A DNA stretch of 64,000 nt from Exiguobacterium marinum DSM 16307 (GTDB taxonomy: Bacteria > Bacillota > Bacilli > Exiguobacteriales > Exiguobacteriaceae): the NCBI RefSeq assembly GCF_000620845.1, contig NZ_KK211189.1, positions 1,565,662 to 1,629,661 on the forward strand, read 5' to 3'. Numbering within the stretch: position 1 is the stretch's first letter; each line of letters opens with the position of its first letter. Both the position numbers and the translations under genes were made by a program. The notes beneath the pieces were generated by a model that was given only the letters and a program-made list of their open reading frames with translations, was not told the DNA's origin and did no database searches. This document shows, piece by piece, positions 20,861 to 64,000 of the stretch.

Positions 20861-21745
20861 GTGACCATTCAACTCTATGTATGGGCCGCGTTTTTAGCAA
20901 TCAGCATTCTGTTAGGGATTCGATTGAATCAGTTAAAAGAACCGGAAGCCAATTTCTTTCCGAAGTTCTTGTTTTATTCTTTGCTTGGAATCGTCTCCTT
21001 TCCAATCGGCGGTTTTCACATCCCGATCGGATTCTTATTGTCTTTTTTATTCTTTCCAAAGCAGAACAGCCGCTATAAATGGTATGGGGCGCTAATAGGC
21101 TTCTTCTTCTTTATCGTCTTACTCTTTGTCCCGTTGTTTGATCAATCTGGATTCCGAGCCGAATCCCAACAGATTGGTGCCGTCTCCGTCGCGGACGAAT
21201 CATTTGACGACATGACAGAGAAATTATTGCAGCGGATCAACAGTGATTCGATTAAATTAGACCGGGGCAAGCTACAAATTGACCGGGTAGGAAACGTCAA
21301 GTCCATTGAATACTTACTGATGGTGGAGAGAGCCGAGTCGTTCCAACAGATTCGTGTGACATACGAGTCTGGACAACTCGCCTATGAGCAGGTTGATGAA
21401 CTACGAAAAGAATCTGGACAGGCGTTCTTTGAAAAACTCGTTGAATTTGACCATATGTTGTCGACTTTACGAGAACCGTCATGGGAGGAATACACTGAAG
21501 TTGTAGCTGCGCCAATCTTACAACTCTCTTATGATGGATTGTACGATATGTACACGTTCGAAAACGAGTCGATGCTCATGCTCAATCGGGACGATGAGCT
21601 CGTCAAGTTCTGGCTACAGCGGGAACCAGTCCTTGCCAACAGCATTCAACTCGTTGGACTGACACAAGAAGGGCGTAGTTCTGGGGAACGTTATGCGATT
21701 CTATATAATTATTCGATACATCAACGAGAGGATTTGACAGAATGA
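20861..21745 (+). CDS. Membrane protein of unknown function upstream of the ECF module
   Basis: This encodes 294 residues. The first 95 hold about four hydrophobic helices with a hinge of charged residues, and the remaining 200 form a soluble, mixed-charge domain with many Glu and Ser. No family is recognised. The start is GTG at 20861, behind a G-rich site, directly after rnz. It overlaps the following lipoprotein gene (ATGA at 21742-21745). Coupling on both sides suggests it belongs with the ECF-type genes, but no function can be inferred from its sequence. Confidence 0.65.
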   Translation: MTIQLYVWAAFLAISILLGIRLNQLKEPEANFFPKFLFYSLLGIVSFPIGGFHIPIGFLLSFLFFPKQNSRYKWYGALIGFFFFIVLLFVPLFDQSGFRAESQQIGAVSVADESFDDMTEKLLQRINSDSIKLDRGKLQIDRVGNVKSIEYLLMVERAESFQQIRVTYESGQLAYEQVDELRKESGQAFFEKLVEFDHMLSTLREPSWEEYTEVVAAPILQLSYDGLYDMYTFENESMLMLNRDDELVKFWLQREPVLANSIQLVGLTQEGRSSGERYAILYNYSIHQREDLTE

Positions 21746-22152
21746 TAAAACCATATATAAGCATTTCTCTATTAACGACTGCACTCCTTGTCGGATGTGG
21801 CGGTGAAGAAGCGCAACGTGAGGCATGTGATGTAAGTCCGACCATCTCAGTATACAATGCAGCGACCGAAGAGACGATCTATCAGGAAAAAAGCGTCTGC
21901 CTTGAAGAGGACGCGACCGTGCTCGATGCGTTGAAGGCGACTGGGCTTGACCTCGAAGTGACAGGAAGCGGTGACATGTCATACGTGACGGCAATCGAGG
22001 GAATCGAAGAAAAATCAGAAGGACAATCGTCAGGATGGGTATTTGCTTTTAACGGTGCTCCGGGAGATGAAGGTGCCGGTGCGAAAGAAGTAGAATCGAC
22101 CGATGTCATTCAGTGGCGGTTCGAAGAAGATGCGATTGCTTTCTTCGAATGA
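21742..22152 (+). CDS. DUF4430 lipoprotein of the ECF module
   Basis: This 136-residue lipoprotein has a signal peptide with lipobox ALLVGC (cysteine near residue 19). It then has a DUF4430 domain, recognisable from ISVYNAATEETIYQEKSVCLEEDATVLDALKATG and SSGWVFAFNGAPGDEGAGA. DUF4430 resembles the C-terminal beta-domain of transcobalamin and intrinsic factor, so a cobalamin-like ligand is one possibility; silk-like or cell-surface roles also occur. It is cotranscribed with EcfT-, EcfA- and EcfS-like genes, which suggests a surface accessory to that transporter. Confidence 0.75.
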   Translation: MIKPYISISLLTTALLVGCGGEEAQREACDVSPTISVYNAATEETIYQEKSVCLEEDATVLDALKATGLDLEVTGSGDMSYVTAIEGIEEKSEGQSSGWVFAFNGAPGDEGAGAKEVESTDVIQWRFEEDAIAFFE

Positions 22153-22789
22153 GGCAGATTGGGAGCGGAGACATCCTGTCACGCTCTTTTTCTTTCTCCT
22201 TAGCCACCTATACGTGCTGACGAATGTCGATGACATCATTATTTTTGTCATCGCCCTTGTCATTCTACTTATTCTCGAACGGCGTTTTCCTTGGGCGATG
22301 TTAGGGGTATTGATTGCTTTTGGATTGGTCTCGGTACTGCCTGGATTATTCGGATGGGACATTTCACTCTCGTACATATGGCGTCAACTAGTGAGCTTGG
22401 CCGCCTTTTTACTAGGCATGTTGTGGATCGCTCGCATTATTCGTCTGGAGCGCCTGCTTCCGCTGTTATCGAAGTGGCCTAGGTCATCGTCACTATTGTA
22501 TGGGGCGTGGGCACTCATCCCATCGATGGAACAAGCAGTGCGCCAATCGATCAGGAGTCATCCGAAAAAATTATGGCGAGAAGGGGTACGGATTGGAATC
22601 GAGAGTCAGCAACAGGAGCCGAGATTTGCCTCTGAACCGATGCGTCCCTTTCGAGTAGAGGATGCTCTTCAGATCATCTTGATTGTAGTGGCTTGCTGGG
22701 TAGCGCTCCAGTGGACAATTATACTTTGGCTCATTTATCCGTACGTTACGAAAGGAGGTTTGCGTGATGCAATGGCTCTCTACCGCTGA
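22130..22789 (+). CDS. EcfT-like transmembrane coupling protein
   Basis: This 219-residue protein has five to six hydrophobic helices (PVTLFFFLLSHLYVLTNVD, IIIFVIALVILLILERRF and others). A cytoplasmic helical segment (LIPSMEQAVRQSIRSHPKK) lies where EcfT coupling helices are found. The usual Ala-Arg-Gly motifs are degenerate (QQQEPRF), so the call depends on topology and neighbours. The start is uncertain; 22130 and 22103 are both ATG with weak ribosome sites, and 22130 is used. It overlaps both neighbouring genes. Confidence 0.65.
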   Translation: MRLLSSNEADWERRHPVTLFFFLLSHLYVLTNVDDIIIFVIALVILLILERRFPWAMLGVLIAFGLVSVLPGLFGWDISLSYIWRQLVSLAAFLLGMLWIARIIRLERLLPLLSKWPRSSSLLYGAWALIPSMEQAVRQSIRSHPKKLWREGVRIGIESQQQEPRFASEPMRPFRVEDALQIILIVVACWVALQWTIILWLIYPYVTKGGLRDAMALYR

Positions 22790-23723
22790 CGGGACGTTCG
22801 AAGAATATGTCGAACGCTACCGACCACGCGTCATCGAGATGAACCAACCGTTCTCAGGGAAAGTCGGGCATTTATTATCGAGTGGGGACCCGTTTCGAGG
22901 GGCAGAGCTTGCTACACTGTTACAAATCGACGCACTCTATCCGAAGCGGTTCGACACATGTTCGAGTGGTGAACAACAGATCGTTCGTGTTGCCTTTGCA
23001 CTAGTGGACCGACCAGAATCAATCGTTCTCATCGAACCGTTTCGGCATCTTGATCAATTTCGTAAAGAACACCTTGAGATGTTGCTCCGCCGTATCTCCG
23101 GGCTCGGTGTTCAAATTGGCTATACGGAAGGGGCGCGTGAGCAGTCAGGCGATGTGACGTTCACATTCACCGAATCGAATAGAGCACCAATAATCGATGC
23201 GCAAGATGTATCCTATCGGCACCCGCTTCAAGCGGTGTATGCGATTGAGGATGTGACCATTCAGATGAACGAGCCAGGACTCACGGTCTGTATCGGGACG
23301 AACGGGAGCGGGAAGTCGACCTTGCTCGAGTTGTTGGCCCGAAGCAGACGACCGCTCAAGGGACGGGTGAAGCGAGGCGAACGAGCCGTCTATCTCCCTG
23401 CCGAACCAGAATACGGACCATTCCCGAAAGAAGAAAGACGACGGGTCGCACAACTGCAAGCCGTGCTTCATGATCCGTCGAGCGTCCTTTTGCTCGATGA
23501 ACCGACTGTAGATTTAACGGGGCAGGAACGTGAAGCATTCGTTGAAGCAGTACGACAGAAGGCTGAGACGGCAAGGGTCGTTTGTGCGACACACGACATG
23601 GAGCTGATTGACCGATCGACAGATGTCATATACCTTGCGAGCGGTCGGGTCGTCTTTCATGGGACACGTTCACTCTTCCAAGAACGGAGTACGTTATGGT
23701 CACTTACGTCCTCGCCATCTTGA
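22767..23723 (+). CDS. Fused, asymmetric ECF ATPase
   Basis: This 318-residue protein holds two ABC-ATPase halves with split motifs. The first half (to about residue 135) lacks a Walker A loop but keeps a signature-like TCSSGEQQIVRVAFAL and a damaged Walker B (SIVLIEPF, Asp lost). The second half (about 140-318) has Walker A GTNGSGKST, Walker B VLLLDEPTVDL and switch histidine CATHDM, but no LSGGQ (PKEERRRVAQLQAVL instead). The two halves could build one working ATP site and one dead site. ATG at 22767 is 8 bases from AAAGGAGG. Confidence 0.8.
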   Translation: MQWLSTADGTFEEYVERYRPRVIEMNQPFSGKVGHLLSSGDPFRGAELATLLQIDALYPKRFDTCSSGEQQIVRVAFALVDRPESIVLIEPFRHLDQFRKEHLEMLLRRISGLGVQIGYTEGAREQSGDVTFTFTESNRAPIIDAQDVSYRHPLQAVYAIEDVTIQMNEPGLTVCIGTNGSGKSTLLELLARSRRPLKGRVKRGERAVYLPAEPEYGPFPKEERRRVAQLQAVLHDPSSVLLLDEPTVDLTGQEREAFVEAVRQKAETARVVCATHDMELIDRSTDVIYLASGRVVFHGTRSLFQERSTLWSLTSSPS

Positions 23724-24241
23724 TTGCCATCGCCGTCTTGTATCGATTCGAGAAATCCTCGCTTCCGATTCAACCACTTGTCCAACTTTTAGCGCTCGCG
23801 GTGATTGGTCGTTGGCTCTTTATGACAATCCCGAACGTTCAACCGACGACGGCGATTTTGATGTTGACCGCTCTACTCGTCAGCTTGAACGGTGCAGCCA
23901 TCCTCGCACTCTTCGTGCCGATCTTGTCAGGACTCTTGCTTGGGATTGGACCGTTCGTCCTTTATCAATTTTTAGGGTGGCTCCTTGTCGTATTGCTCGT
24001 CAGCCTGTTTCGACCGCTTTTATTAAAGTCGCCCGTACTCTTCCTCGTACTAGGATTTCTATCTGGTTTTTTATACGGATGGACAACGAACGTCGCGTTT
24101 ATCGAAGTGATTGGTGCAGACTTTTTGAAATTACTTTTGCTCAGTTTCCCATTTGATTTCGTCCACGGCATTTCTAACGTCGTCTTCCTCCTATTGATTC
24201 GTCCGTTATTTGAGCGCATATTCCTTCGTCAACTCGGGTAA
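23696..24241 (+). CDS. ECF-type S component, substrate unknown
   Basis: This 181-residue protein has six hydrophobic helices. Sequence features of S components include PTTAILMLTALLVSLNGA, LFVPILSGLLLGIGPF and a C-terminal helix ending RPLFERIF. It would bind the vitamin or other small ligand and pair with the EcfT- and EcfA-like proteins just upstream. Length is usual for the family (about 170-200). The start ATG lies 6 bases from GGAG and overlaps the ATPase gene by 28 bp. The DUF4430 neighbour and a cobalamin adenosyltransferase elsewhere in the window make a corrinoid ligand a guess only. Confidence 0.7.
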   Translation: MVTYVLAILIAIAVLYRFEKSSLPIQPLVQLLALAVIGRWLFMTIPNVQPTTAILMLTALLVSLNGAAILALFVPILSGLLLGIGPFVLYQFLGWLLVVLLVSLFRPLLLKSPVLFLVLGFLSGFLYGWTTNVAFIEVIGADFLKLLLLSFPFDFVHGISNVVFLLLIRPLFERIFLRQLG

Positions 24242-24282: not shown

Positions 24283-24615
24283 ATGGATGCTTATGTCAAT
24301 GTCACGGAAGTCGGTATGTTTCTACTCGTAGGGTTATTGTTTATCGTGTTAAACCTTGTTCTTTTAGCGAAGCGTTACACGAGAGCCCGTTTTGCAATGC
24401 TGAGTATTCTGGCAACAAGCGTGTGGCCGGCACTCATGATTGTTCTTTCGGTAAATCAATTGAATGTGATGGATCAACTCACTTCGGGAGAATGGACGTT
24501 AAACGCTGTGATCGCGTGGGCGGTCGTCCTCTCGACTGCGCTCATGACGATGATTCCAGCAGGAGTCTTTCTTCATCGGCTTGTGACTGTGTCTCGATTG
24601 CATTCTGAATTATAA
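24283..24615 (+). CDS. Small three-helix membrane protein, unknown
   Basis: This encodes 110 residues with about three membrane helices (VGMFLLVGLLFIVLNLVLLA, AMLSILATSVWPALMIVLSV and TLNAVIAWAVVLSTALMTMI, each near 20 residues) and short basic loops. No family is recognised. GTGAGGTGA precedes the ATG. It is the last gene before a terminator that closes the rnz-ECF run, 41 bases after the S component, so it may be an accessory of the transporter or independent. Confidence 0.6.
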   Translation: MDAYVNVTEVGMFLLVGLLFIVLNLVLLAKRYTRARFAMLSILATSVWPALMIVLSVNQLNVMDQLTSGEWTLNAVIAWAVVLSTALMTMIPAGVFLHRLVTVSRLHSEL

Positions 24616-63951: not shown

Positions 63952-64000
63952 ATGAAAAGATATACACGAACTGGCGACACGGGTGAAACTTCTTTAATCG
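63952..64000 (+). CDS. PduO-type cob(I)alamin adenosyltransferase (5' end only)
   Basis: Sixteen residues, MKRYTRTGDTGETSLI, lie before the window ends. They match the conserved N-terminus MKIYTRTGDxGETSLI of PduO-type ATP:corrinoid adenosyltransferases, which convert cob(I)alamin to adenosylcobalamin. GGGGGAG lies 6 bases before the ATG. The piece is short but very distinctive. Confidence 0.8.
   Translation, partial: MKRYTRTGDTGETSLI

Follow-up and report, generated by a model that had tools for sequence, protein, structure and literature searches.

The locus described here lies on contig NZ_KK211189.1 of Exiguobacterium marinum DSM 16307, within a forward-strand stretch of 64,000 nucleotides (positions 1,565,662 to 1,629,661) that was analyzed as a whole and is called the window. 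Four overlapping open reading frames (ORFs) on the plus strand encode a small lipoprotein and the parts of an energy-coupling factor (ECF) transporter, among them an ATPase from which one of the two usual ATP sites appears to have been deleted. The first gene (21742–22152, 136 amino acids (aa)) encodes a DUF4430 lipoprotein (PF14478, E = 6.4e-15), the proposed extracellular corrinoid-capture protein, whose lipobox LVGC was assigned by eye with its cysteine codon at 21796–21798. It is followed by a shortened EcfT-like membrane protein (22130–22789, 219 aa), of which the frame is open from 22103 and the start is probably the ATG at 22130, where similarity to relatives begins. A fused and reduced ATP-binding cassette (ABC) ATPase comes third (22764–23723, 319 aa; Pfam ABC_tran, E = 2e-13), and the last gene (23696–24241, 181 aa) encodes an S component of the CbrT family, identified by its match to 6FNP and its fold and proposed as the subunit that binds and translocates cobalamin. 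The initial annotation had listed lipoprotein, EcfT-like, EcfA-like and EcfS-like genes in overlapping order, and this layout was found at the place given. The S, T and A genes stand together and the S component has an S-component fold, which places the set among the ECF transporters. Pfam and NCBIfam offered no name for the EcfT-like and S-like proteins, and only generic ABC matches for the ATPase. The gene called EcfA-like is indeed an ABC ATPase; it is not an ordinary EcfA, and its half-site architecture had been overlooked together with the reduction of EcfT.

The ATPase consists of two partial nucleotide-binding domains (NBDs) whose losses are complementary. Its length in the Exiguobacterium family is approximately 320 aa (37 of the 38 family genomes with a match, G254 being left out), as against 535–641 aa for the fused two-NBD ATPases of relatives. 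Half-NBD 1 (residues 1–140; 22764–23183), delimited by motif tallies and by hhalign to an intact first NBD, keeps the signature CSSGEQQ at 22959–22979 and the D-loop LD; Walker A and the aspartate of Walker B are gone, and no H-loop can be recognised. Half-NBD 2 (residues 141–319; 23184–23723), delimited by motif tallies and by the Walker A–Walker B spacing, keeps the Walker A GTNGSGKST at 23295–23321, Walker B and the H-loop; its signature and Q-loop glutamine are gone, as is most of the helical subdomain. When the 37 genomes were counted, domain 1 had Walker A in none and the signature in all, and domain 2 had Walker A, Walker B and the H-loop each in all 37 and the signature in none. A DEP triplet was seen in 2 of the 37 domain-1 stretches, lying within a Q-loop-like stretch (LDEPLAG) and outside Walker B. 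The Walker A–Walker B spacing of domain 2 is 59–63 residues in the 37 genomes, compared with 100–119 in the second NBD of 27 intact homologues, and therefore most of its helical subdomain must have been lost; the Q-loop glutamine was missing at the aligned position in the variants displayed (12 of 22). Half-NBD 1 aligned solely to residues 134–219 of the intact first NBD (hhalign E = 1e-20), and residues 1–42 of the ATPase occupy the place of about 133 residues of that NBD. Domain 1 is slightly closer to the intact first NBD than to the second (5e-22 vs. 1e-20), and domain 2 is much closer to the second than to the first (4e-37 vs. 5e-30). In the 27 fused ATPases of relatives, each NBD has its Walker A, Walker B and signature, with minor deviations. 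This completeness is partly by construction, as the proteins were selected by length and for having two DEP motifs and one Walker A or more; the ATPase of L128 is outside this set. The two full NBDs of a canonical EcfA/EcfA′ pair were thus found in the fused ATPase of none of the 37 genomes. Since each ABC site is composed of Walker A from one NBD and the signature from its partner, exactly one of the two composite sites survives and the other has lost both of its halves. One ATP site per ATPase chain would be expected from these motifs. In structural searches, Foldseek gave tandem-NBD proteins such as ABCE1 as the best matches of the ATPase model, with low TM-scores (0.3–0.4), and the second half of the ATPase aligned with ECF-type NBDs (8bms_A, Z = 16.0; 5x40_A, 15.6; 4hlu_C, 15.4), at Z values similar to those that many other ABC proteins reach.

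The EcfT-like protein is reduced as well. Its profile aligned over the full length with that of 26 intact EcfT proteins (global hhalign, probability 87, E = 4e-7, 12% identity), and its full-length family members have 219–239 aa (16 proteins, after the short row G011 was dropped from 17 for length), as against 286–334 aa for intact EcfT. The RGYG motif, present in all 26 intact proteins, was found in 0 of 37 family genomes, where the segment leading to it is gone; many of these 37 rows are fragments from loci that end inside the gene, and coverage of the region was not confirmed row by row. In ECF-FolT2, two EcfT coupling helices dock by X-Arg-X anchors into EcfA and EcfA′ (PMC10368641). RGYG would be one of these two anchors, and, when it is taken as such, the protein departs from a canonical EcfT with two anchored coupling helices. 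A one-anchor EcfT and a one-site ATPase would then form a coherent picture.

The S component was compared with 177,635 distinct PDB sequences, among which 6FNP (CbrT) was the sole significant match. The E value was 1.5e-10 with the single sequence (phmmer), 7.3e-22 with a genus-only profile and 2.8e-31 with a wider profile. An AlphaFold2 (AF2) model (pLDDT 90.8, pTM 0.88) showed the S-component fold, and in VIA-align the S components scored Z = 10.5–15.4, the first unrelated row following at 6.9; CbrT itself gave Z = 10.8 with an rmsd of 3.3 over 148 aligned residues. On the midpoint-rooted S tree, the Exiguobacterium proteins form one clade (100/98) that adjoins a 28-row clade, the fork having a support of 98/88. 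The loci of this sister clade contain T and/or fused ATPase genes, and a cobalamin riboswitch lies upstream in 26 of the 28; CbrT is located among stand-alone S genes on a long branch. The corrinoid ligand proposed at the outset was to be abandoned if the S component grouped with another vitamin family. By both sequence match and S tree it groups with CbrT and with no other such family, and both the homology and the fold of a CbrT-type S component were found. Purified ECF-CbrT transports cobalamin and cobinamide, hemin giving no competition, and CbrT works with an ECF module that is shared among S components and has EcfA and EcfA′ as its ATPases (PMC5997447).

The lipoprotein is the sole DUF4430 match in the genome at E ≤ 0.001. 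The top PDB match of the DUF4430 profile was transcobalamin-1, residues 333–432 (E = 4.7e-4, a modest score), which is the C-terminal domain, and the likeness claimed by the initial annotation is thereby borne out as a top-ranking though weak match; homology to the C-terminal domain of transcobalamin and intrinsic factor was accepted on this basis. A DUF4430 gene is present at all 16 family loci that reach far enough, and it was tagged in 23 of the 25 named Exiguobacterium loci. Two cysteines beyond that of the lipobox are common to the six aligned Exiguobacterium lipoproteins and missing in two outside ones, and it is possible that this pair forms a lineage-specific disulphide. The link between the lipoprotein and a predicted cobalamin ECF transporter presumably exists already as a public subsystem annotation, which was not confirmed in our literature search.

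The S gene was present in 25 of 25 Exiguobacterium-family genomes searched (27 of 41 genomes overall) and, in a draw of 398 genomes across the class, in 137, of which 38 belong to the family. Exiguobacterium accounts for 25 of the 33 named loci found, and in all 25 the reduced T and ATPase genes adjoin the S gene. The ratio of nonsynonymous to synonymous substitution (dN/dS) was far below 1 for every gene wherever silent sites were unsaturated; nine relatives were compared, and many pairs beyond the two closest were saturated at silent sites. Against these two closest relatives it was 0.05–0.07 for the lipoprotein, 0.13–0.14 for T, 0.08–0.11 for the ATPase (0.05 and 0.07 for its domain 1) and 0.05–0.07 for S. 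Because the S gene occurs in all 25 family genomes and dN/dS is well below 1, the gene set is not a product of chance: the four overlapping genes are real, conserved in Exiguobacterium and under purifying selection. The overlapping frames extend upstream to a membrane protein of 294 aa (20861–21745, plus strand) whose stop overlaps the lipoprotein start. It has no assigned function and no Pfam or NCBIfam match at cut-off, holds the same position in both groups of the genus, and, at 0.02 against the two closest relatives, has a lower dN/dS than any other gene of the set. A 110-aa membrane protein (24283–24615, plus strand), likewise a conserved neighbour with no assigned function, lies 3′ of the S gene; in the long Exiguobacterium loci examined, one of these two membrane proteins stands on either side of the transporter genes. 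Promoter-like sites were at chance level, and terminator-like sites numbered 12, compared with 8.4 expected.

Genes for the use of B12 are present in the genus. A PduO-type cob(I)alamin adenosyltransferase gene starts at 63952 on the plus strand and continues beyond the end of the window at 64000, approximately 40 kb from the transporter operon (PF01923, E = 1.2e-53 at G000:C2:1629622; TIGR00636 over cut-off), and PduO was found in 25 of 25 family genomes searched. Each of these genomes also has one protein with a B12-binding domain over cut-off, three of them having a second match below it; the search was confined to this domain, B12-dependent enzymes that lack it, such as NrdJ, falling outside. 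In E. marinum, the protein is a MerR–B12-binding regulator with a CarH match of 2e-36, whose best NCBIfam score is to the CarH model, below cut-off (156 vs. 400 bits). It keeps, by eye, the motifs Wx9EH and ExHxxG, which are hallmarks of CarH and B12 binding. Its gene (L061, 3472–4341, minus strand; G000:C2, ~2.0080 Mb) adjoins mecA-like and recQ-like genes and not pigment genes, as judged by eye, in an order identical to that in a genome of the second group (L063). QueG was found in 27 of 27 genomes, and the cobalamin-synthesis marker CbiG_C, the single marker used, in 0 of 27. QueG needs B12 and CarH needs adenosylcobalamin, and the genus probably imports a certain amount of B12 to supply a tRNA enzyme and a repressor that responds to light. 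A CarH homologue of E. antarcticum has already been noted (PMC6016940), and E. sibiricum was described as having a cobalamin-independent methionine synthase (PMC2615787). A BtuF-type importer was considered as the B12 route and judged unlikely: G000 has three PF01497 proteins, for which ferric-siderophore and catechol models were the best in NCBIfam, all below cut-off, and one of them matched BtuF at 2e-5 (24 bits against a cut-off of 234); G001, among nine family genomes searched for PF01497, has a single such protein.

Loci outside the genus were examined for cobalamin riboswitches, which were located upstream on the same strand in 31 of 41 loci that we chose from 99 genomes with a match outside the family, and in 7 of the 8 named ones; one of the 31 (G093) was barely over the cut-off (31.8 vs. 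31.5 bits). The G027 operon shows the order riboswitch, large DUF4430/squalene-cyclase-like protein, DUF4430 lipoprotein, EcfT, fused EcfA–EcfA′ and S. Its large surface protein (L065, 2241–5003, with L044, 2–3040), preceded by the riboswitch, combines DUF4430 with a squalene-cyclase-like part, and the two-domain layout of transcobalamin and intrinsic factor resembles this combination. As a separate observation, L111 (G387), L108 and L110 (G120 and G130) and L043 (G028) retain the S and DUF4430 genes and have neither PduO in the genome nor a riboswitch over cut-off; these systems may use another ligand such as heme.

The observed gene content, motifs, homology, conservation, selection and B12 genes are best explained by a model in which the ligand, the role of the lipoprotein, the one site per transporter and the catalytic cycle are conjectural. 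It is probable, though well short of assured, that the locus encodes a dedicated ECF importer for cobalamin, and perhaps other corrinoids as well, with a DUF4430 capture lipoprotein and a one-site fused ATPase. A corrinoid is put forward as the ligand because of the CbrT match, the S tree, the riboswitches of relatives and the match of DUF4430 to transcobalamin-1; the corrinoid reading of the initial annotation gains further from the CarH-like regulator, PduO and QueG in the genome, and the gene set most likely imports vitamin B12. For the narrower proposal, that a natural one-ATP-site ABC motor of two complementary half-NBDs and a single-anchor EcfT runs B12 import in Exiguobacterium, the chances seem evenly divided. 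The lipoprotein, anchored outside the membrane, would capture the corrinoid and pass it to the CbrT-like S component, which would bind it and carry it across the membrane by toppling. The EcfT-like protein would couple S to a single fused ATPase chain via its single coupling-helix anchor. This chain would be the remnant of a normal EcfA–EcfA′ fusion, in which one composite site was deleted in both halves (the Walker A side in domain 1 and the signature side in domain 2) and the other was kept in both (the Walker A of domain 2 and the signature of domain 1). It would close on a single ATP, thereby expelling or resetting S, and hydrolysis would reopen it. The imported cobalamin would then serve the tRNA enzyme QueG and, once adenosylated by PduO, the CarH-like light-dependent repressor.

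Several observations weigh against parts of this model, and they are given here together with the alternatives they favor. Each ATPase chain holds exactly one full set of the motifs tallied, and its AF2 model is moderate (pLDDT 75, pTM 0.75) and says nothing on quaternary structure. In the main competing view, which we regard as unlikely, the same cobalamin importer has two fused chains per transporter, and the homodimer has two ordinary composite sites; each chain would be one NBD with its signature-bearing part N-terminal, an arrangement to which we give the same low credence. In Group I ECF transporters such as CbiMQO the ATPase works as a homodimer, and a CbiO dimer structure was among the structural matches of the ATPase model. 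However, the chain looks descended from a two-NBD fusion of 535–641 aa, in which one chain should serve one EcfT, and domain 1 retains remnants of a core of its own (Walker B strand and D-loop). The loss of RGYG from EcfT is also what would be expected of a one-sided motor.

The one-site motor is further questioned by canonical ECF ATPase genes. Each of the 10 genomes tested encodes a canonical EcfA-type ATPase that passes the TIGR04521 cut-off and, next to it, another one, and S could for this reason use the canonical ECF module, the reduced T and ATPase having been left with a regulatory or structural role and no longer driving transport. CbrT itself relies on a shared module (PMC5997447), and many relatives have only DUF4430 and S genes at the locus. 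This alternative is rather improbable: the full motif set of one site persists in 37 of 37 genomes, and purifying selection acts on T and on both half-domains, a pattern consistent with an active ATPase.

As for the ligand, the S-fold comparison did not single out CbrT (Z = 10.8): the transition-metal protein 4m5b (15.4) and TmRibU (13.3) scored higher, and BtuM was next to it at 10.7. Foldseek with the S model gave no match at E ≤ 0.001, the best being TmRibU at 0.03. The structural comparison with CbrT, BtuM and other S families that the initial annotation had proposed thus yielded the fold and not the vitamin, and it was discarded as a means of ligand assignment. Moreover, a cobalamin riboswitch over the Rfam cut-off was found nowhere in the window and in 0 of 25 family genomes, for which only the best first-look candidates were scored and weak sub-cut-off matches appeared in 4. 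The regulatory link of the relatives is accordingly missing in Exiguobacterium, as is the usual, non-defining context of CbrT-type genes (a riboswitch or B12 genes at the locus). Ten of the 41 loci outside the genus also have no riboswitch upstream, and PduO is absent from 6 of those 10 genomes (G028, G083, G110, G120, G130 and G387), G028 having no B12-binding domain either. S and DUF4430 may for this reason serve another ligand in some lineages, and ligand switching within the family is possible. An alternative is that the importer carries another tetrapyrrole, most likely heme; LhaSTA is a heme ECF transporter, and further heme ECF systems with dissimilar S components are cited in streptococci and L. 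sakei (PMC7299338). Import of heme by the Exiguobacterium system is nevertheless very improbable, given an S component that matches CbrT, whose transport hemin does not inhibit (PMC5997447), cobalamin riboswitches at most loci of relatives, PduO and a CarH-like protein in the genus, and an operon with no site resembling a Fur box in its vicinity (the consensus, with up to 3 mismatches allowed, matched twice in the 64 kb, neither time close to the operon, against 3.65 matches expected by chance). For Exiguobacterium, the evidence for B12 is stronger than that for heme.

The S family, its DUF4430 partner and the connection to B12 all belong to a known type of system. For the complementary loss in ATPase and EcfT, no description was found in the literature searched, most subscription journals being outside the search; such a half-site ATPase is not described in the accessible sections of PMC7299338, PMC5997447, PMC11477304, PMC2667541 and PMC10368641. 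The same search found no experiment on the ligand or transport of the Exiguobacterium proteins. Whether ABC transporters need two ATP sites, or two ATP per cycle, is an old question that has usually been probed by point-mutating one site. Here, evolution has apparently stripped both partners of one composite site while the other persists across the whole genus, and intact related systems are at hand for comparison, which makes the two-site question testable on a natural pair. Should the one-site model hold, the motor would be one of the smallest in ABC transport and would show that an importer can manage with one ATP site per cycle. The locus also connects a transcobalamin-like lipoprotein of bacteria with an S-component family proven for B12, and it suggests that B12 import may be kept mainly on behalf of a light sensor and an enzyme of tRNA modification.

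Among known systems, ECF-CbrT of Lactobacillus delbrueckii (6FNP; PMC5997447) is similar in its homologous S component (E = 7e-22) of the same fold class and in the presence of a PduO adenosyltransferase in the genome. It differs in that CbrT shares an ECF module with EcfA and EcfA′, whereas the T and ATPase of Exiguobacterium are dedicated and reduced, and the operon here includes a DUF4430 lipoprotein. The operons of Bacilli preceded by cobalamin riboswitches (e.g., L065 with L044) have the same gene order of lipoprotein, T, A and S, and a homologous S that forms the nearest group on the S tree. Their ATPases are two-site (27 examined) and their EcfT proteins are full-length with RGYG (26 of 26), and they possess their own riboswitch and often an extra large surface protein, neither of which was found at the Exiguobacterium locus. 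The C-terminal domain of transcobalamin and intrinsic factor is the best PDB match of the DUF4430 profile; mammalian B12 binders carry a large helical barrel domain, whereas Exiguobacterium has a single small lipoprotein without it. LhaSTA of Staphylococcus lugdunensis (PMC7299338) is likewise a dedicated tetrapyrrole ECF transporter with its own S, T and A genes. It is, however, iron-regulated through a fur-box and located in the isd locus, and no Fur-like site was found near the Exiguobacterium operon, whose S component falls, by its match to CbrT, in a B12 family. Degenerate-site ABC proteins such as CFTR and BmrCD resemble the Exiguobacterium ATPase in having only one catalytically competent composite site. 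These proteins retain two full NBD folds, whereas the Exiguobacterium ATPase has lost the portion of one NBD that bears Walker A, together with most of the other NBD's helical subdomain.

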